A stretch of DNA of 64,000 nt, from contig NZ_VVIW01000005.1 of assembly GCF_011682045.1 (NCBI RefSeq), positions 124,001 to 188,000 of the forward strand, read 5' to 3'. The notes under the pieces are model-generated. The model was not told the DNA's origin. It worked only from the letters and a program-made list of their open reading frames with translations, and made no database searches. Origin of the DNA: Massilia aquatica. Its GTDB lineage: Bacteria; Pseudomonadota; Gammaproteobacteria; Burkholderiales; Burkholderiaceae_D. The first letter of the stretch is position 1; the number at the start of each line of letters is the position of its first letter. Both the position numbers and the translations under genes were made by a program. Below are positions 42,391-52,068 of the stretch, piece by piece.

Positions 42391-42493
42391 CGCGGCCCGG
42401 CCTGACGCGGCCCGGCCTGACGCGGCCCGGCCTGACGCGGCCCGGCCTGACGCCCTGCGCGGGCCGCCCTGCGCGGGTCGCCCTGCGCGGGTC
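42386..42493. repeat. Two adjoining GC-rich tandem repeats spanning the yjfF stop
   Basis: Four 15-bp units cctgacgcggcccgg occupy 42386-42445, with a partial fifth. Three 14-bp units gccctgcgcggg(t/c)c occupy 42452-42493. The first array starts at the yjfF stop codon and repeats it in frame. The second can form a GC-rich stem. They fill most of the gap before the next GH43 gene and may vary in number by slippage. Confidence 0.85.
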
Positions 42494-45213: not shown

Positions 45214-46350
45214 ATGACCCTGACTAAGAAAATCGGTACTCTGAGCGCAATCGGCTTCGCCATGCTGGCAGCACAAGCATCGGCACAAGACCAGTTCGTG
45301 AACCCAGAGTGGGCAAACACCGCGACCTACATCGGCGCCGGTATCGGCCAGACGCGCAGCTACACCAAAGCGGCTCCGGTCATCAAGAACCTGAACGGTC
45401 AAGGCGGTTTTGTCAATTCGTGGAATTCCGACGAAAAAGACATGGGTTACAAATTGTTCGTCGGTAAGCAACTGAGCCGCTACTTCGCAGTAGAAGCTGG
45501 TTTCTTCGACCTGGGCAACTTCAACGTCCAAACCCGCAACAACCTGGGCGGCGTTGTGAACGCTGAACAGAAGTACAAAGGCGTGAACCTGGACCTGATC
45601 GCACAAGTTCCAATGAGCGAGCGTTTCTCGGTCTACGGCCGTGCTGGTATGCATTACACCAAAGCAACGACCCAGTTCTCGGGTAACCGCGCTGTTGGCC
45701 TGTTCGCTGGCGAATCGAGCGAGAAGAAGCTGAACCCGAAATTCGGCGTTGGCCTGGAATACAAATTCACCGAAGCGCTGGCTCTGCGCGCCGAAGCTGA
45801 AAACTATCGCATCGACGACGCACTGCGCAGCAACGGCAACACCAAGATGTACTCGCTGAACCTGGTCTACAAACTGGGTCGTCCGGCAGCATCGGCGCCA
45901 ATGCCAGCACCAGCGCCAGCACCGGAAGTCGCACCAGCACCAGCACCGGCGCCAGCACCGGCACCAATGCCGGCAGCGCCACAGCCAGTGTCGGAAAAAG
46001 TCTCGTTCGCCGCTGAAGCCCTGTTCGACTTCGACAAATCGGTTGTCAAGCCAGAAGGCAAAGCAGCCCTGGACGATCTGCTCAACAAGCTGCAAGGCAT
46101 GAACACCGAAGTCATGGTCACCGTCGGCCATACCGATTCGGTCGGTTCCGATGCGTACAACCAGAAACTGTCGCTGCGCCGCGCTGAAGCTGTCAAAGCT
46201 TACATCGTGTCGAAAGGTGTTGAAACCTCGCGCGTCTACACCGAAGGCAAGGGCGAGTCCCAGCCAGTTGCAGAAAACAACTCGGCAGAAGGCCGCGCTA
46301 AAAACCGTCGCGTGACGGTTGAAGTAGTCGGTACCCGTACTGCCAAGTAA
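45214..46350 (+). CDS. OmpA family outer-membrane protein (OmpA1)
   Basis: The 378-residue protein has a signal peptide cleaved near QASA and an N-terminal eight-strand barrel of about 200 residues (YKLFVGKQLSRYFAVEAGFF). An Ala/Pro linker (about 230-255) precedes a C-terminal OmpA peptidoglycan-binding domain. That domain has FDFDKSVVKPEGKAALDDLL, GHTDSVGSDAYNQKLSLRRA and the peptidoglycan-binding NRRVTVE. Codon choice is less GC-extreme than in neighbours (many GCA and GGT codons), which suggests high expression. Its C-terminal domain is almost identical to that of the protein at 48023. A terminator follows. Confidence 0.93.
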   Translation: MTLTKKIGTLSAIGFAMLAAQASAQDQFVNPEWANTATYIGAGIGQTRSYTKAAPVIKNLNGQGGFVNSWNSDEKDMGYKLFVGKQLSRYFAVEAGFFDLGNFNVQTRNNLGGVVNAEQKYKGVNLDLIAQVPMSERFSVYGRAGMHYTKATTQFSGNRAVGLFAGESSEKKLNPKFGVGLEYKFTEALALRAEAENYRIDDALRSNGNTKMYSLNLVYKLGRPAASAPMPAPAPAPEVAPAPAPAPAPAPMPAAPQPVSEKVSFAAEALFDFDKSVVKPEGKAALDDLLNKLQGMNTEVMVTVGHTDSVGSDAYNQKLSLRRAEAVKAYIVSKGVETSRVYTEGKGESQPVAENNSAEGRAKNRRVTVEVVGTRTAK

Positions 46351-46364
46351 TTCTTCGCCACACT

Positions 46365-46404
46365 AAAAAAGCCGCCGCGCCCCTTGGGGCCGGCGGCTTT
46401 TTTT
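46365..46404 (+). terminator. Intrinsic terminator after OmpA1
   Basis: A strong GC stem, gccgccg paired with cggcggc, is enclosed by A6 before and T7 after, around a ccccttgggg inner stem. It lies 15 bp after the OmpA1 stop and separates it from the next unit. Confidence 0.9.
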
Positions 46405-46459
46405 GCGTTGACTGCTGAGAGTGTTGTTGAAGTAATGAATATTTCTCGTTTAAAAATGC

Positions 46460-46479
46460 TATGTACGGTTCCGAACTGA
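46460..46479 (+). promoter_or_regulatory. Shared 20-bp envelope-gene motif, copy 2 (before ice-binding-like gene 1)
   Basis: TATGTACGGTTCCGAACTGA keeps the palindromic core GTACG-N4-CGAAC. It is 94 bp before the ATG at 46554. Confidence 0.5.
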
Positions 46480-46553
46480 GTAGAGCGTTACAAACGGCAA
46501 TAGTGAGTGACGTTGCTGTTCTCCGGCTACAAGCTCACCTGAAGGAACCCAGA

Positions 46554-47993
46554 ATGACCATTAGAAAACACGCGAAGGCACTCATGTGCATCGCCGGATT
46601 GCTCGCAGTTTCCTTCCTCGCCGCATGCGGCGGGGGCGGGGACCAGGGCCGCGACCCGATTCTCGGCCAGGGCGCCGCCAATCTGGTCAGCGTTGCCGTC
46701 ACGCCCGCCAACGCCACCGTGTTGACCGCCGAAACGCGCCAGTTCACCGCCACCGCCACCTACGCCGATGGCTCATCGCGCGATGTAACGGCCGACTCAG
46801 CCTGGTTGTCCGCCTCGCCCGGCATTGCCGGCGTGAGCCCGGCCAAAGGCCTGGCCACCGGTATCAGTTCCGGCAGCGCCGCCATCAGCGCCACCTTTTC
46901 CGGCAAAACCGGGGCTGCCACCCTGGTCGTGACGACCCCGTTGCCGCCGCCGCCACCTGTGGTCACCCTGTTGTCGATCACGGTGACGCCGTCGACTGCG
47001 ACCATCGCGCCCGGTGCAACCCAGCAATTTGTCGCCATCGGCAACTATTCGGATAAATCGACCGCCATCATCACCAATGCGGTGAGCTGGACGTCGGGCG
47101 CGACTGCCACCGGCACCATCCTGCCGTCCGGCATGGCGACTGGCGTTGCCGCCGGCAACACCACCATCAGCGCCAGCAGCGGCGGCCAGATCGGCAGCGC
47201 CGTGCTCAACGTTACCGTACCGCCCGTGATTCCGGTCACGCCGCCAGTCACCCCGCCGGTCACGCCACCAGTCACCCCGCCGGTTACGCCACCGGTTGTG
47301 CCGCCCGTGGTGCCACCGGTGATGCCGCCTGTCGGCCCGATCGAACCTCCCGGCGTGCCGCAGGTCCCCACCGTCCCACCGGTCGTGCCGCCAGCGGCCG
47401 GCATCAGCCTCGGTCGCGCCGACAGCTTCGCCGTGCTTGCGGGTACCTCGATTACCAATAATTCCGGTGGCACGACCCTGGTGACCGGCGACGTCGGCGC
47501 GCCGTCGCAAACCACCGCGCCGGTCCAGGCCGCCGGTTACGCCAACTACAGCTCGGGCCAGATCCTGGCCGGTGCGCTGGCTGACTTGCAAGTGGCTGTC
47601 ACCAGCGCCAATGCGCAGACCTGTACCGTCAATTCGGCCTCCGGCATCGACCTCGGCGGCCTGGTGCTCAAACCGGGCGTGTACTGCTACGCCGGCGCCA
47701 TCAGCATCACCGGCACCTTTACCATGGACGGCCCGGGTGTCTACATCTTCCGCACCGCGTCCACGCTCAACAGCACGGCCAACGCCGTGGTCGCGCTGAC
47801 CGGCGGCGCCTCGGCTTCCAGCGTGTACTGGATCCCGGCCGGACCGACCACCCTGGGTGCGAACGGCGTCTTCAAGGGATCGATCCTGAGCCAGTCGGCC
47901 GCCATTACCGTGGGCGACAACACGACCCTGCAAAGCGGCCGTGCGCTGAGCGGCGCCGCCGTCACCCTGCGCAATAACCAGATCAGCAAATAA
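46554..47993 (+). CDS. Ig-like lipoprotein with DUF3494 ice-binding-like domain (copy 1)
   Basis: This 479-residue protein has a lipoprotein signal peptide with lipobox LAAC. Two bacterial Ig-like (BIg2) domains follow (about 40-125 and 140-225, each starting with VTP-rich strands). A Pro-rich (PVTPP)n and (VPPV)n linker comes next, then a C-terminal DUF3494 ice-binding beta-solenoid starting at about 310 (SLGRADSFAVLAGTSITNNS; TTLVTGDVGAP; LGGLVLKPGVYCYAGAISIT). It should be anchored in the outer membrane and display the adhesin or ice-binding domain. ATG 46554 has AAGGAA 8 bases upstream. It is in one unit with an OmpA gene 29 bp downstream. Confidence 0.88.
   Translation: MTIRKHAKALMCIAGLLAVSFLAACGGGGDQGRDPILGQGAANLVSVAVTPANATVLTAETRQFTATATYADGSSRDVTADSAWLSASPGIAGVSPAKGLATGISSGSAAISATFSGKTGAATLVVTTPLPPPPPVVTLLSITVTPSTATIAPGATQQFVAIGNYSDKSTAIITNAVSWTSGATATGTILPSGMATGVAAGNTTISASSGGQIGSAVLNVTVPPVIPVTPPVTPPVTPPVTPPVTPPVVPPVVPPVMPPVGPIEPPGVPQVPTVPPVVPPAAGISLGRADSFAVLAGTSITNNSGGTTLVTGDVGAPSQTTAPVQAAGYANYSSGQILAGALADLQVAVTSANAQTCTVNSASGIDLGGLVLKPGVYCYAGAISITGTFTMDGPGVYIFRTASTLNSTANAVVALTGGASASSVYWIPAGPTTLGANGVFKGSILSQSAAITVGDNTTLQSGRALSGAAVTLRNNQISK
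47229..47335 (+). repeat. Pro-rich linker-coding repeat (PVTPP/VVPPV)
   Basis: Imperfect 12-15 base repeats of the ccgccggtcacg type encode the Pro/Val/Thr linker between Ig-like and DUF3494 domains of copy 1. They are coding low-complexity sequence, not a CRISPR or regulatory array. Confidence 0.7.
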
Positions 47994-48022
47994 GCCGACC
48001 TCCATTTTTCCGAAAGAACATC

Positions 48023-49165
48023 ATGACATTAGCAAAACACATCGGCGCCCTGAGCGTCATCGGCTGCGCCCTGCTTGCCAGCCAGGCTGCCCGGGCCGAC
48101 GAGCCTTTCGTCAATCCCGAGTGGGCCAACAGCGCCTGGTACATCGGCGCCGGCATCGGCCAGTCGCGTGCCAACATCGACAATGAGCGCCTCACGCGCA
48201 GCCTGACCGCCAACGGCGCCAGCCTGTCGTCCTTCAAGGTCGACGAGCGCGAACTGGCTTACAAACTGTATGTCGGCAAGCAGCTGAACCGCTACTTCGC
48301 GGTCGAGGCCGGCTTTTTCGACCTGGGCAAGTTCAGCTTCGACGCCACCACCTCGCAAAATGGCCGGCTGGTCGGCGAAGCGGGTTTCCGCGGCGTCAAC
48401 ATGGACCTGGTGGGGCAGTTGCCCCTGTCCGAGCGTTTCTCGCTGCTGGGCCGGGTCGGCATGAACTACGCCAAGGCCAGCACCCACTTCAGCGGCAACC
48501 GCCTGTTCGCGGTGACCAATCCCAACCCAAGCGAGCGCAAGCTCAATGCCAAGGCAGGGCTGGGGCTGGAATTCAAATTCAGCGAAGCGCTGGCGCTGCG
48601 CGCTGAAGTCGAGCGCTACCGCGTCAACGACGCTGTCGGCAATCGCGGCGATGTCGACCTGGCGTCGATGAGCCTGGTGTACAAGCTCGGCCGCCCGGCG
48701 GCGAGCCGCCCGGTCCCCGTCGCGCCGGTCGAGCCTGCCGCGCCAAGCGTGACGCCGGCGCCGGCCATCGTACAGCCGGCCCCGGCCGCGCCGGTTGCCG
48801 TCTCGGAAAAAGTCTCGTTCGCCGCCGAAGCGCTATTCGACTTCGACAAATCGGTGGTCAAGCCGGAAGGCAAGGCTGCCCTGGACGATCTGCTGAACAA
48901 GCTGCAAGGCATGAACACCGAAGTCATGGTCACCGTCGGCCACACCGACTCGGTCGGTTCGGACGCTTACAACCAGAAACTGTCGCTGCGCCGCGCCGAA
49001 GCGGTCAAGGCTTATATCGTCTCGAAAGGTGTTGACACTTCGCGCGTCTACACCGAAGGCAAGGGCGAATCGCAACCGGTGGCCGACAATAAAACCGCCG
49101 AAGGGCGCGCCAAAAACCGCCGCGTGACGGTGGAAGTGGTCGGCACCCGCAGCGTCAACAAGTAA
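48023..49165 (+). CDS. OmpA family outer-membrane protein (OmpA2)
   Basis: The 380-residue paralogue has a signal peptide ending near AARA, a barrel domain (YKLYVGKQLNRYFAVEAGFF), a Pro/Ala/Val linker and an OmpA peptidoglycan-binding domain. The last domain matches OmpA1 almost residue for residue (KVSFAAEALFDFDKSVV through to NRRVTVEVVGTR). The barrel is closer to OmpA3 than to OmpA1. It lies 29 bp after the first ice-binding-like gene in a presumed two-gene operon. Palindromes at 49187-49262 lie downstream. Confidence 0.92.
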   Translation: MTLAKHIGALSVIGCALLASQAARADEPFVNPEWANSAWYIGAGIGQSRANIDNERLTRSLTANGASLSSFKVDERELAYKLYVGKQLNRYFAVEAGFFDLGKFSFDATTSQNGRLVGEAGFRGVNMDLVGQLPLSERFSLLGRVGMNYAKASTHFSGNRLFAVTNPNPSERKLNAKAGLGLEFKFSEALALRAEVERYRVNDAVGNRGDVDLASMSLVYKLGRPAASRPVPVAPVEPAAPSVTPAPAIVQPAPAAPVAVSEKVSFAAEALFDFDKSVVKPEGKAALDDLLNKLQGMNTEVMVTVGHTDSVGSDAYNQKLSLRRAEAVKAYIVSKGVDTSRVYTEGKGESQPVADNKTAEGRAKNRRVTVEVVGTRSVNK

Positions 49166-49186
49166 CTCACCCGCAACAATTGCTTA

Positions 49187-49262
49187 ACCGGGGTCAGACC
49201 CCGGTGTCGCCCGCCGGCATCCTTTCTTTTCCCAAACTTGGGTGGGAACGGAGGCCGGCGGG
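49187..49262. terminator. Palindromic region after OmpA2
   Basis: The near-perfect palindrome ACCGGGGTCAGACCCCGGT (49187-49205) is related to the ends of the 4491-4690 element. A second structure pairs cccgccggc (49210-49218) with gccggcggg (49254-49262) and encloses an inner cccaa/ttggg stem. There is no clear T-run, so termination is plausible rather than shown. Confidence 0.45.
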
Positions 49263-49308
49263 ACATTTCCGTTGTATTTAAGTACAATGTTGCCGATCTT
49301 TAAGTCGT

Positions 49309-49328
49309 TATGTTCGCTATCGCACAGA
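49309..49328 (+). promoter_or_regulatory. Shared 20-bp envelope-gene motif, copy 3 (before ice-binding-like gene 2)
   Basis: TATGTTCGCTATCGCACAGA, 97 bp before the ATG at 49406. It shares the TATGTTCGCTA start and the downstream TTGTGG with the copy before OmpA1. Confidence 0.58.
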
Positions 49329-49405
49329 ATTGCGCGTTGTGGAAGATAATCATATTGAATACATCTCGTAACGACGAGAAATTTTCATTCCCCAAGGAAG
49401 ATTTA

Positions 49406-50824
49406 ATGAACATCCAAAAATATACAAGAACTTTGCTCTGCACAACCGGCCTGCTGGCTGCGGCAGTGCTCACCGCCTGCGGCGGCAGCAGCGACAACGG
49501 CCGTGATCCGATCCTGGGCCTGCCGGCTGCGGAACTGGTCAGCGTCAGCGTCACCCCGGCCAACGCCACCGTCCTGGTTGGCGCAAGCCAGCAGTTCATG
49601 GCCACCGCCAGCTATGCCGACGGCACCTCGCGCAACGTGACCGACCTGTCGACCTGGGCCTCGGCCTCGCCGGCGATCGCGCGCGTGACCCCTGCGGGCG
49701 GCCTGGCAACCGGCCTGACCCCTGGCAGCGCGGCCATTACCGCCGCTTTCGGTGCTAAAACCGGCGCTGCCACCCTGAAGGTCAATGCCCAGACGCCAGT
49801 GACCCCACCCGTGGTGGTGAGCCTGACCGGCCTGTCGGTGACTCCTGCCAGCGCCAGCGTGCGCGTCGGCGCCAGCCAGCAGTACACCGCCATCGCCACC
49901 TATTCCGACAGCTCGACCGCGGTCATCACCAACAACGTGAACTGGATCTCGGGCAGCACGGCAATTGCCACCATCGCCCAATCGGGCAGCGCCACCGGCG
50001 TCGCCGCCGGCAATGCCGTGATCACGGCCAGCTCCGGCGACAAGAGCGCCACCGCGGCGCTGACTGTCACGCCTGCGCTGGTCATCGACCCGCCGCCGGT
50101 TGTCGTGGTACCGCCGGTTGTCGTTCCACCAGTCGTCGTTCCACCAGTCGTGGTACCGCCAGTCGTGGTGCCGCCAGTGACCGTACCGCCGGTCACCACG
50201 CCACCGATCGTTGATTTCCCGAGCGATGGCAGCATCGGCCTGGGCAGCATCCGCGACTTTGCCGTACTGGCACGTACCACCATCACCAACAACGCCGGCG
50301 GCACGACGCTCGTGACCGGTAACGTTGGCGGCCCGGTGCAGAATGTCGAACCGCCGCAGGCGCCTGGCTTCCTCAACATCAAATCGGGCTTCGACCTGAG
50401 CCGTCCTTTCGAGGACCTGCAAACCGCCGTTATCAATGGTAATAACCGTACTTGCACCGTCCTCTCGGATGTGGGCATCGAACTCGGCGGCCTGGTGCTG
50501 AAACCTGGCGTGTACTGCTACTCGGGTGCTGTGACCCTGACAGGCAAGCTGACCCTGAGTGGTGGCGGCCCGTACATCTTCCGCGTTAAGTCGACCCTGA
50601 CCACGTCAGCCAACTCGGTCATCGAACTGACCAATGGCGCCAACCATAACCTGGTGTTCTGGATTCCGTTTGGCGAGACCAATCTGGGCGCCAAGAGCGC
50701 GTTCCAGGGCACCATCCTGAGTGCCGGCGAAGACATCAAGGTTGGCGACGGTGCGTCGGTCTTGAATGGTCGTTTGTTGAGCGGCAAGGCTGTCGTCCTG
50801 CTCAACAACAAAATCACCAAATAA
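49406..50824 (+). CDS. Ig-like lipoprotein with DUF3494 ice-binding-like domain (copy 2)
   Basis: A 472-residue paralogue of the protein at 46554 with the same order: lipobox LTAC, two BIg2-like domains, a Val/Pro linker (VVVPPVVVPP), then DUF3494 (LGSIRDFAVLARTTITNNAG; LVTGNVGGP; LGGLVLKPGVYCYSGAVTLT). The ATG at 49406 has AAGGAAG 6 bases upstream. It is followed after 21 bp by a third OmpA gene. Domain identity and gene order show tandem duplication of the lipoprotein plus OmpA pair. Confidence 0.88.
   Translation: MNIQKYTRTLLCTTGLLAAAVLTACGGSSDNGRDPILGLPAAELVSVSVTPANATVLVGASQQFMATASYADGTSRNVTDLSTWASASPAIARVTPAGGLATGLTPGSAAITAAFGAKTGAATLKVNAQTPVTPPVVVSLTGLSVTPASASVRVGASQQYTAIATYSDSSTAVITNNVNWISGSTAIATIAQSGSATGVAAGNAVITASSGDKSATAALTVTPALVIDPPPVVVVPPVVVPPVVVPPVVVPPVVVPPVTVPPVTTPPIVDFPSDGSIGLGSIRDFAVLARTTITNNAGGTTLVTGNVGGPVQNVEPPQAPGFLNIKSGFDLSRPFEDLQTAVINGNNRTCTVLSDVGIELGGLVLKPGVYCYSGAVTLTGKLTLSGGGPYIFRVKSTLTTSANSVIELTNGANHNLVFWIPFGETNLGAKSAFQGTILSAGEDIKVGDGASVLNGRLLSGKAVVLLNNKITK
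50095..50211 (+). repeat. Pro/Val linker-coding repeat
   Basis: Repeats of the type ccgccagtcgtggta and ccaccagtcgtcgtt encode the Val/Pro linker of ice-binding-like copy 2. Unit sequence and number differ from copy 1, so the linker has evolved separately. Confidence 0.7.
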
Positions 50825-50845
50825 AAAAACTTTCGAGAGAAAACA

Positions 50846-51985
50846 ATGACATTCACTAAAAAAGCGGGCCTCGTGGGCGCCATCGGCTGCGCCCTGGTAG
50901 CCGGGCAGGCGACAGCGGCGGACGACGTCTTCATCAATCCGGAATGGGCCAACAGCGCCTGGTACGTGGGCGGCAATGTCGGCCAGTCGCGCGCCAGCAT
51001 CGACGACGTGCGCCTGATCCGCAGTCTGACCGCGAATGGCGCGGCCATGACCAACTTCACGGCCGATGAGAAAGATGTCGGCTACAAGTTGTACGTCGGT
51101 AAGCAGCTGAACCAGTACTTCGCGGTTGAAGCCGGCCTGTTCGACCTGGGCAAGTTCGGCTTCAAATCGACCACCAGCCAGAACGGCACGCTCAACGGCG
51201 AAGCCGGTTTCCGTGGCGCCAACCTGGATCTGGTGGCGCAAGTGCCGCTGTCGCAGCGTTTTTCGGTATTCGGCCGTGCCGGCATGAACTATGCCAAGGC
51301 GACCACGCGCTTTAACGGCAACCGCCTGTTCGCGGTGACCAATCCAAGCCCAAGCGAGCGCAAGCTCAACGCCAAGGCCGGTTTCGGCCTGGAATACAAG
51401 TTCAGCGAAGCGCTGGCCTTGCGTGGCGAAGTCGAGCGTTACCGCGTCAACGACGCCGTGGGCAACCGCGGCGATGTCGACCTGTTCTCGGTCGGCCTGG
51501 TCTACAAGATCGGCCGCCCGGCCGCCAGGCCGGTCGCCGCACCGGTCGAGCCGCCGCCGCCAGCGGTCGTGCCGACTGTTGCGCCAGCGGCTGCCCAGCC
51601 GCCGGCCGAGCCAGCCAAGCCGGTGCCAACCTCGGAAAAAACCACCTTCTCGGCCGAAGCCCTGTTTGCGTTCGACAGCTCGGTGCTGCGTCCAGCGGGC
51701 AAGGCCTCGATCGACGAGCTGCTCTCCAAGCTGCAAGGCATGGATACCGACGTCATGATCACGGTCGGCCACACCGACTCAATCGGCAGCAACGCGTACA
51801 ACGAGAAACTGTCGCTGCGCCGCGCCGCGTCGGTCAAGACCTACCTGGTGTCGAAAGGCATTGATGCTTCGCGCATCTACACCGAAGGCAAGGGCGAAAC
51901 CCAGCCGGTTGCCGACAACAAAACGGCTGAAGGCCGCGCCAAGAACCGCCGCGTGACGGTGGAAGTGGTTGGCATGCGCCGCTAA
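50846..51985 (+). CDS. OmpA family outer-membrane protein (OmpA3)
   Basis: The 379-residue paralogue has a signal peptide ending near ATAA, a barrel (YKLYVGKQLNQYFAVEAGLF), a Pro-rich linker and an OmpA domain. Its OmpA domain has diverged (FAFDSSVLRPAGKASIDELL; GHTDSIGSNAYNEKLSLRRA), whereas those of copies 1 and 2 are nearly the same. The NRRVTVEVVG ending is kept. It is 21 bp downstream of the second ice-binding-like gene and is followed by a strong terminator. Confidence 0.92.
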   Translation: MTFTKKAGLVGAIGCALVAGQATAADDVFINPEWANSAWYVGGNVGQSRASIDDVRLIRSLTANGAAMTNFTADEKDVGYKLYVGKQLNQYFAVEAGLFDLGKFGFKSTTSQNGTLNGEAGFRGANLDLVAQVPLSQRFSVFGRAGMNYAKATTRFNGNRLFAVTNPSPSERKLNAKAGFGLEYKFSEALALRGEVERYRVNDAVGNRGDVDLFSVGLVYKIGRPAARPVAAPVEPPPPAVVPTVAPAAAQPPAEPAKPVPTSEKTTFSAEALFAFDSSVLRPAGKASIDELLSKLQGMDTDVMITVGHTDSIGSNAYNEKLSLRRAASVKTYLVSKGIDASRIYTEGKGETQPVADNKTAEGRAKNRRVTVEVVGMRR

Positions 51986-52005: not shown

Positions 52006-52043
52006 AAAAAAACCGCCCGGCCCCGCGCCCGGCGGTTTTTTTT
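52006..52043 (+). terminator. Intrinsic terminator after OmpA3
   Basis: A7 then a GC stem (accgcc paired with ggcggt) around a cccggccccgcgcc loop, followed by T8. It begins 20 bp after the stop of OmpA3 and closes the array. Confidence 0.9.
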
Positions 52044-52068
52044 ATTTCCCCGGCGGTGTCCCCGTGGC

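Follow-up and report, generated by a model that had tools for sequence, protein, structure and literature searches.

DUF3494 lipoproteins paired with OmpA proteins in Massilia aquatica and its relatives: a candidate two-part surface unit

Why would genes for stalked lipoproteins with an ice-binding-like DUF3494 head alternate with genes for OmpA proteins? An array of five such genes lies on the + strand of a 64,000-nucleotide stretch of Massilia aquatica DNA (assembly GCF_011682045.1, contig NZ_VVIW01000005.1, positions 124,001 to 188,000), called here the window, whose own numbering we use throughout. It runs OmpA1 (45214..46350), LP1 (46554..47993), OmpA2 (48023..49165), LP2 (49406..50824) and OmpA3 (50846..51985), LP1 and LP2 being the lipoproteins, OmpA2 the partner of LP1 and OmpA3 that of LP2. 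This order, read in an earlier note from the letters of the DNA, is borne out by the open reading frames (ORFs) and by Pfam. So are the architecture proposed for both lipoproteins, namely a lipobox (LAAC-GGG in LP1, LTAC-GGS in LP2, from which lipidation is likely), two Ig-like PF02368 (Big_2) stretches, a Pro-rich stretch and a PF11999 (DUF3494) match, and the gaps of 29 bp (LP1 stop to OmpA2 start) and 21 bp (LP2 to OmpA3). The note understates the case, since the pair is widespread. With conserved signatures found beside the lipid and at the extracellular loops of the partner OmpA, we lean towards the view that each stalked DUF3494 lipoprotein is anchored at the surface with the help of its own dedicated OmpA, one lipoprotein–OmpA unit making up one surface structure.

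Recurrence of the pair and its two signatures

PF11999 was present in 15/17 genomes of the genus, 69/245 of the family, 27/300 of the order and 14/369 of the class. Wide regions were examined around 60 of these places and then around 20 more, a subset of the places listed; in the first 60 regions and the window, all 43 ORFs combining Big_2 with DUF3494 had a same-strand OmpA gene directly downstream, and one scan of named genomes returned 49 loci, every one of which carried the pair. The gap between the two genes was 6 to 117 bp in these 49 loci, save for two apparent overlaps (L121 and L138; L and G are our labels for loci and genomes), which we ascribe to over-extended OmpA ORFs. The adjacency of DUF3494 and OmpA, whose recurrence the earlier note had set beforehand as a check on its interpretation, is thus strongly confirmed. 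The complete five-gene array was found in 6/17 genus genomes (G000, G002, G005, G007, G009, G016), while G003 holds OmpA1-LP2-OmpA3 only, and given this presence and the far wider distribution of the pair, we do not regard the array as a product of chance. That it might be unique to the window genome is ruled out by the same widespread pairing. The two genus genomes without PF11999 have one free full-length OmpA (G001) and none at E<=1e-30 (G004).

Lipoproteins with canonical heads followed by OmpA also occur in nine families besides the window's own, across the order and the class (L219-L222, L224, L227, L230, L231, L233, L265, L266). These relatives were recovered with PF11999 itself; a class-wide search with a short-head profile (11/369 genomes matched) gave no OmpA-paired relative beyond the window's own. 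The stalk changes considerably between loci: it holds 2-8 Big_2 repeats, is built of Big_5 in six of eight proteins scanned (L219, L224, L227 and L231 from other families, L109 and L108), and is nearly absent in the paired L112 and L230. We also record two apparent head swaps, in which canonical 200-bit DUF3494 heads sit on a Big_2 lipoprotein chassis with OmpA (L104 6152-8317, L095 5896-7611). DUF3494 is not always beside OmpA: secreted forms and short lipoproteins lack it, and so do several long lipoproteins that do not bear the motif described next (e.g. L213, L259, L269, L396_0). These OmpA-less long lipoproteins, together with the pairing of L112 and L230, rule out stalk length as a predictor of OmpA, and the motif predicts better.

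The paired lipoproteins share a motif directly after the lipidated cysteine, C-G-rich-[RKQ]-[DASE]-P-[IV]-[LF]-G, which with that cysteine reads CGGGGDQGRDPILG in LP1 (46626..46667) and CGGSSDNGRDPILG in LP2 (49478..49519). We scored its presence in 160 DUF3494 ORFs with distinct heads, counting an OmpA when it lay on the same strand, scored >200 bits to a window OmpA and stood at a gap of -450 to 400: 89 had motif and OmpA, 61 neither, 8 a motif-like sequence only and 2 an OmpA only. A first count of 88/61/9/2 was amended when an OmpA was found (L396) adjoining L214_1, which ended at its locus edge. The ten discordant ORFs are mostly explained. Six (L093, L110, L172, L251, L252, L256) are regular-expression matches that do not resemble the motif, L113 is doubtful and L108 is a real exception, with motif and no OmpA; among the OmpA-only ORFs, L069 is a broken gene and L224 has its 5' end cut by the locus edge. 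Two of the 61 ORFs with neither feature (L216, L228) have <450 bp downstream in their locus. The locus of L069 (L161/L069, Massilia sp. H-1), one of the 49 loci above, is broken throughout by stops and frame changes, which may be sequencing errors, the genome copy being only 48% complete. In L396 (1066-6509) three DUF3494 lipoprotein genes follow one another, and the last of them, which bears CGGNDPILG, is the only one to precede OmpA.

Searching 145 family genomes with a profile built from 14 N-termini yielded 39 matches at E<=1e-9, of which 38 are DUF3494 lipoproteins (some being rows of the profile itself) and the 39th (L343 1314-2216) carries the motif CGGGGGQSPILG and Ig-like sequence in a 300-aa ORF that lacks DUF3494, with no OmpA match on its 5.8 kb contig. 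A strict DNA pattern for RDPILG found in the genus, besides the lipoproteins, only cytosolic-looking enzymes (30 loci of 43 matches). A general RDPILG lipoprotein tag carrying many heads was therefore not found in these 30/43 matches, nor strongly in the 145 family genomes, the exceptions being L343 and, more weakly, L344-L346. These last three, from three genomes of one genus, encode a lipoprotein-like protein of 747-748 aa with the weaker start CGGGGGDPTLG and show no OmpA match. Between the cysteine and PILG lie 5-10 residues (70 distinct N-termini), and motif and lipid would lie on one side of the membrane because the shortest, 5-residue spacer cannot span it.

The second signature lies in the OmpA. 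A tree of 98 sequences (79 partners and 19 free OmpAs, without a lipoprotein gene in front; midpoint root only) places the free ones among the partners in several places, with 5 changes on the tree, so that free OmpAs such as OmpA1 probably derive from paired ones. We called a column partner-specific if conserved in >=85% of the 79 partners and changed in >=3/7 free-OmpA clades. Such columns make up 20/59 of the conserved barrel columns versus 0/40 of the conserved C-terminal columns (Fisher p 7e-6, the rows being related), and 18/20 lie in or <=4 residues from extracellular loops, with strand limits taken from the model. In OmpA barrels, most variation usually falls in the loops. With loop limits set by eye, identity in loops, strands and C-terminus was 0.57/0.69/0.74 among 17 Massilia-group partners, 0.59/0.63/0.54 among 14 partners of several families and 0.23/0.56/0.81 among representatives of the 7 free-OmpA clades. 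In OmpA2 the predicted extracellular loop 1 (48170..48250) holds partner-specific residues.

Loop 4 of the partners mostly reads R[VI]NDAVGN[RK]GD[VI]D, with NDAVGNRGD in both OmpA2 (48626..48652) and OmpA3 (51449..51475); OmpA1 lacks the partner loop signatures. As a DNA pattern, loop 4 occurred 53 times, in 48/240 family genomes, each time (53/53) with a PF11999 match 619-823 bp upstream on that strand, and none was found in those of the 240 genomes without PF11999. A looser pattern occurred 11 times in 10/270 order genomes, the window's two included, 11/11 downstream of PF11999 (compared by eye). The exact pattern misses variant partners (e.g. G006, G014, G104), PF11999 itself being in 69/245 genomes.

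A proposed docking site and the rival explanations

Stalk families and head classes vary, while the motif near the lipid and the OmpA remain constant. From this constancy, the conserved outer surface of the OmpA and the short spacer between Cys and PILG, we infer that the lipoprotein lies in the outer leaflet and docks on its own OmpA by way of the loops. The lipoprotein would sit on the outer face of the outer membrane, its N-terminal end near the lipid docking on extracellular loops L1, L2 and L4, while the OmpA C-terminal domain would tie the complex to peptidoglycan, and the Ig repeats and Pro-rich linker would hold the head clear of surface polymers. The LP1 head would then be a tethered adhesin for ice or inhibit its recrystallisation at the cell surface, and the LP2 head, with its changed face, may have another target. 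Surface display itself is supported only indirectly, by the conserved extracellular loops of the partner OmpA and by stalks of 2-8 Big_2 repeats. Our more detailed proposal is tentative: the dedicated OmpA could be an outer-leaflet receptor whose loops clasp the C-Gn-x-RDPILG tag next to the lipid. The tag, the lipid and the barrel would together make a two-point anchor, itself linked to peptidoglycan, that could carry different Ig stalks and DUF3494 heads, a lipoprotein surface-docking module of the Burkholderiales.

Several observations weigh against docking on the loops. An AlphaFold2 model of LP2 and OmpA3 as one read-through chain gave a mean predicted local distance difference test score (pLDDT) of 34-40 in the motif region, a predicted template modelling score (pTM) of 0.34 and no sign of contact, a weak negative because it was judged with 16/47 paired rows and without coordinates or predicted aligned error. 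One pair carries a degenerate motif, CGNGGSHTILGG (L397, outside the 160 ORFs), and the lineage of L108 (G171) keeps the motif on a Big_5-DUF3494 lipoprotein without OmpA. In a protein related to L108 (G152; L047, L398), the motif has decayed to CGGGGDSNGHAPVPGG and there is no OmpA match within 8 kb, as if constraint had been relaxed following OmpA loss. Within the short class, distances between heads are correlated with those between partner barrels (r 0.44, 0/2000 permutations as high), hardly better than with those between partner C-terminal domains (r 0.39); the correlation is not decisive, co-evolution and shared descent not being told apart. Many hosts of the pair are not from ice, going by record titles, and the accessible part of an Arctic Ocean survey of DUF3494 reports minimal evidence for tethering (PMC9957290). 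Moreover, in E. coli, the portion of the report available to us describes RcsF as binding the periplasmic C-terminal domain of OmpA and not the barrel, which is the opposite face from the one we propose (PMC7553776).

This precedent speaks for a periplasmic arrangement, in which the lipid would lie in the inner leaflet and the head would work in the periplasm, the C-terminal domain of OmpA being bound, in the manner of RcsF, by the motif or the first Ig domain. Ordinary Lol sorting would likewise leave the lipid facing the periplasm. However, the C-terminal domain shows no partner-specific conservation, which falls at the extracellular loops, and up to 8 Big_2 repeats are hard to fit into a periplasm of about 20-25 nm, so we judge this arrangement decidedly unlikely. 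A role of the OmpA mainly in export or assembly, whereby the lipoprotein would travel to the surface along with the OmpA as the barrel is assembled, the loops doing no more than guide this step, is unlikely but the sequence evidence does not separate it from anchoring. Such a role would agree with the interlocked complexes of RcsF and barrel proteins, whose assembly needs BamE according to the part of the article consulted (PMC4942254), and with the requirement of TpgA for surface display of AtaA given in the available text of another (PMC5861075); on the other hand, a spacer of 5-10 residues between lipid and motif gives no long segment that could run through the lumen. Simple genetic linkage, with two envelope genes in one operon whose products make no contact and with loop conservation reflecting another ligand, would suit the lack of predicted contact between LP2 and OmpA3. 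We consider it very unlikely, since the free OmpAs, nested among partners on the tree, differ at exactly these loops, every loop 4 signature found lies downstream of a DUF3494 match, and motif and OmpA persist while stalk family and head class vary.

If the tentative proposal of an OmpA receptor is right, the Burkholderiales would have a docking module that can be read from two sequence signatures. Matching signatures in the lipoprotein and in the OmpA loops make a lipoprotein–barrel docking site directly and cheaply testable, which bears on the question of how Gram-negative cells hold and show surface lipoproteins. The signatures would also separate DUF3494 proteins that are paired with OmpA and held at the surface from those that are unpaired.

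The array in Massilia aquatica, its history and its heads

The host genome measures 7.47 Mb, and the array is flanked by a thioesterase gene and a uvrA-like gene. By identity of the LP1 head the nearest species are Massilia mucilaginosa (97%), M. rubra (94%) and M. frigida (88%), which we take to be Antarctic isolates. A whole-genome search with PF11999 found LP1 and LP2 as its only two places, with scores of 102.5 bits (E 3e-29) and 98.3 bits (E 6e-28) against a curated cut-off of 28.7; with the NCBIfam model IBP_CFB (NF045625) they score 64.3 and 69.2 bits, below its equivalog cut-off of 400 bits. Pfam at E<=0.01 found only Ice_binding and Ig-like families in the two proteins and no trimeric autotransporter adhesin. 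Longer ORFs starting at 46461 and 49310 were taken as over-extensions because the lipoprotein signal begins later. All three OmpAs match PF00691 plus PF01389/PF13505, the barrel of OmpA3 has eight strands in the AlphaFold2 model, and none of the three reaches an NCBIfam OmpA equivalog cut-off (best 196.2 versus 200). Their binding to peptidoglycan is presumed from the family.

A terminator-like stem with a T run lies 3' of OmpA1 (46386..46400, +; wider when judged by eye), although a single site is weak alone, the scan having found 17 such sites versus 9.3 in shuffles. A second stem, seen by eye 3' of OmpA3 (about 52006-52044), is not in the list from that scan. With these stems the five genes likely form three units, OmpA1 alone and the two lipoprotein–OmpA pairs, rather than one. 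A promoter scan gave one weak site versus 1.3 expected. Outside the array, a short tandem repeat, (LTRPG)n in one frame, lies at about 42400-42490, where an ABC permease-like ORF ends.

OmpA2 and OmpA3 form sister clades holding the same species, and the LP1 and LP2 heads split likewise by distance, which supports duplication of the whole two-part unit in this lineage, as the earlier note had supposed. The two heads differ at 44% of sites and the OmpA2 and OmpA3 barrels at 29%, and the same split is seen in the other species with the array. Between OmpA1 and OmpA2 identity reaches 93% in the C-terminal domain versus 52% in the barrel, which suggests gene conversion.

In an AlphaFold2 model of LP1 (mean pLDDT 80), residues 45-128 and 140-221 form the Ig-like domains (46683..46934 and 46968..47213, also found by Pfam), the Pro-rich stalk (47226..47399) is of low confidence, and the head (residues 287-479; 47409..47990) is a beta-solenoid with a long helix (337-355) alongside. 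The Ig part finds its best Foldseek match in the Leptospira LigA tandem (8gyr). The head superposes on AnpIBP (7bwx; Z 32.0, root-mean-square deviation 1.1 A over 192 residues) and on SfIBP_1 (6bg8; Z 27.7, 30% identity). We transferred the positions of the putative ice-binding B-face, for which the family leads one to expect a flat surface of Thr/Ser and small residues, by alignment from AnpIBP, as described in the available part of its report (PMC7277481), with the register of strand 5 set by eye. Among its 24 outward positions, 1 is charged in LP1 and 3 in LP2 (head at 50240..50821). The split holds more widely, with 3-4 charges in 7/7 LP2-type heads (the window's 50240-50821, L055, L056, L057, L058, L060, L067) and 0-2 in 34/34 other short heads including LP1; the charges are Glu/Asp at strand 5, Glu at strand 4 in 6/7, and Lys in strand 6. 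Outward Thr/Ser counts overlap (6-10 in LP2-type heads and 6-12 in the others). With its uncharged putative face the LP1 head is a fair ice-binding candidate, and the charged LP2 head may have been re-purposed for another target. Taken as a whole, the interpretation of the earlier note is partly supported, namely in its recurrence and in its duplicated unit. The two heads are better not taken as equivalent, since LP2-type heads are charged on the surface that serves for ice in relatives of known structure. A DUF3494 domain thus need not mean ice.

Comparison with known systems

Tethering of DUF3494 by an Ig stalk is known, and the pairing with OmpA was not found reported: the literature searched, which did not cover 10.1111/febs.14424 and 10.1111/febs.14764, showed neither a DUF3494–OmpA pairing nor an ice-binding protein linked to OmpA and a lipoprotein. 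Ig stalks bearing DUF3494 heads are already described as tethered ice adhesins in the accessible text of the Arctic survey, where the Ig-like repeats of SfIBP_1 from Shewanella frigidimarina (6bg8), a candidate of this kind, are said to tether the head to the membrane and where an OmpA partner does not come up (PMC9957290). SfIBP_1 has the DUF3494 head and is named 'Ig domain protein, group 2 domain protein', and what LP1 and LP2 share with such an adhesin is the union of an anchor (in their case a probable lipid, going by the lipobox), Ig repeats and a DUF3494 head in one protein.

The Leptospira Lig proteins (LigA, 8gyr) resemble our lipoproteins in their tandem Big_2 stalk, and we know of no DUF3494 head or OmpA partner in them. 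MpIBP of Marinomonas primoryensis is of the RTX type and is not known to have a lipid anchor. It is held on the cell by a long stalk of Ig-like repeats carrying an ice-binding domain, but it measures 1.5 MDa and is contrasted with DUF3494 proteins, according to the part of the article available (PMC5014055). The DUF3494 protein nIBP of Nostoc sp. HG1 is believed to stay attached to the cell surface; its anchor is a C-terminal PEP-Cterm signal instead of a lipid, and the text consulted mentions no OmpA partner (PMC7783341).

Two other systems bear on the partnership with an OmpA protein, in which, as far as the window is concerned, the barrel resides in the OmpA partner. RcsF is not known to be encoded beside OmpA or to have an Ig stalk or a DUF3494 head; AtaA is an autotransporter and not a lipoprotein, and TpgA is not known to have an OmpA barrel. 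RcsF of E. coli, a surface-exposed lipoprotein reported in complex with OmpA (PMC7553776 and PMC4942254, each in the part available), matches what we propose for our lipoproteins, and differs in being a stress sensor that binds the OmpA C-terminal domain (PMC7553776). In the AtaA-TpgA system, as presented in the accessible text, the adhesin gene is followed in the same operon by a gene for an OmpA_C-like peptidoglycan-binding domain that is needed for surface display (PMC5861075), an order of genes that LP1 with OmpA2 and LP2 with OmpA3 share.

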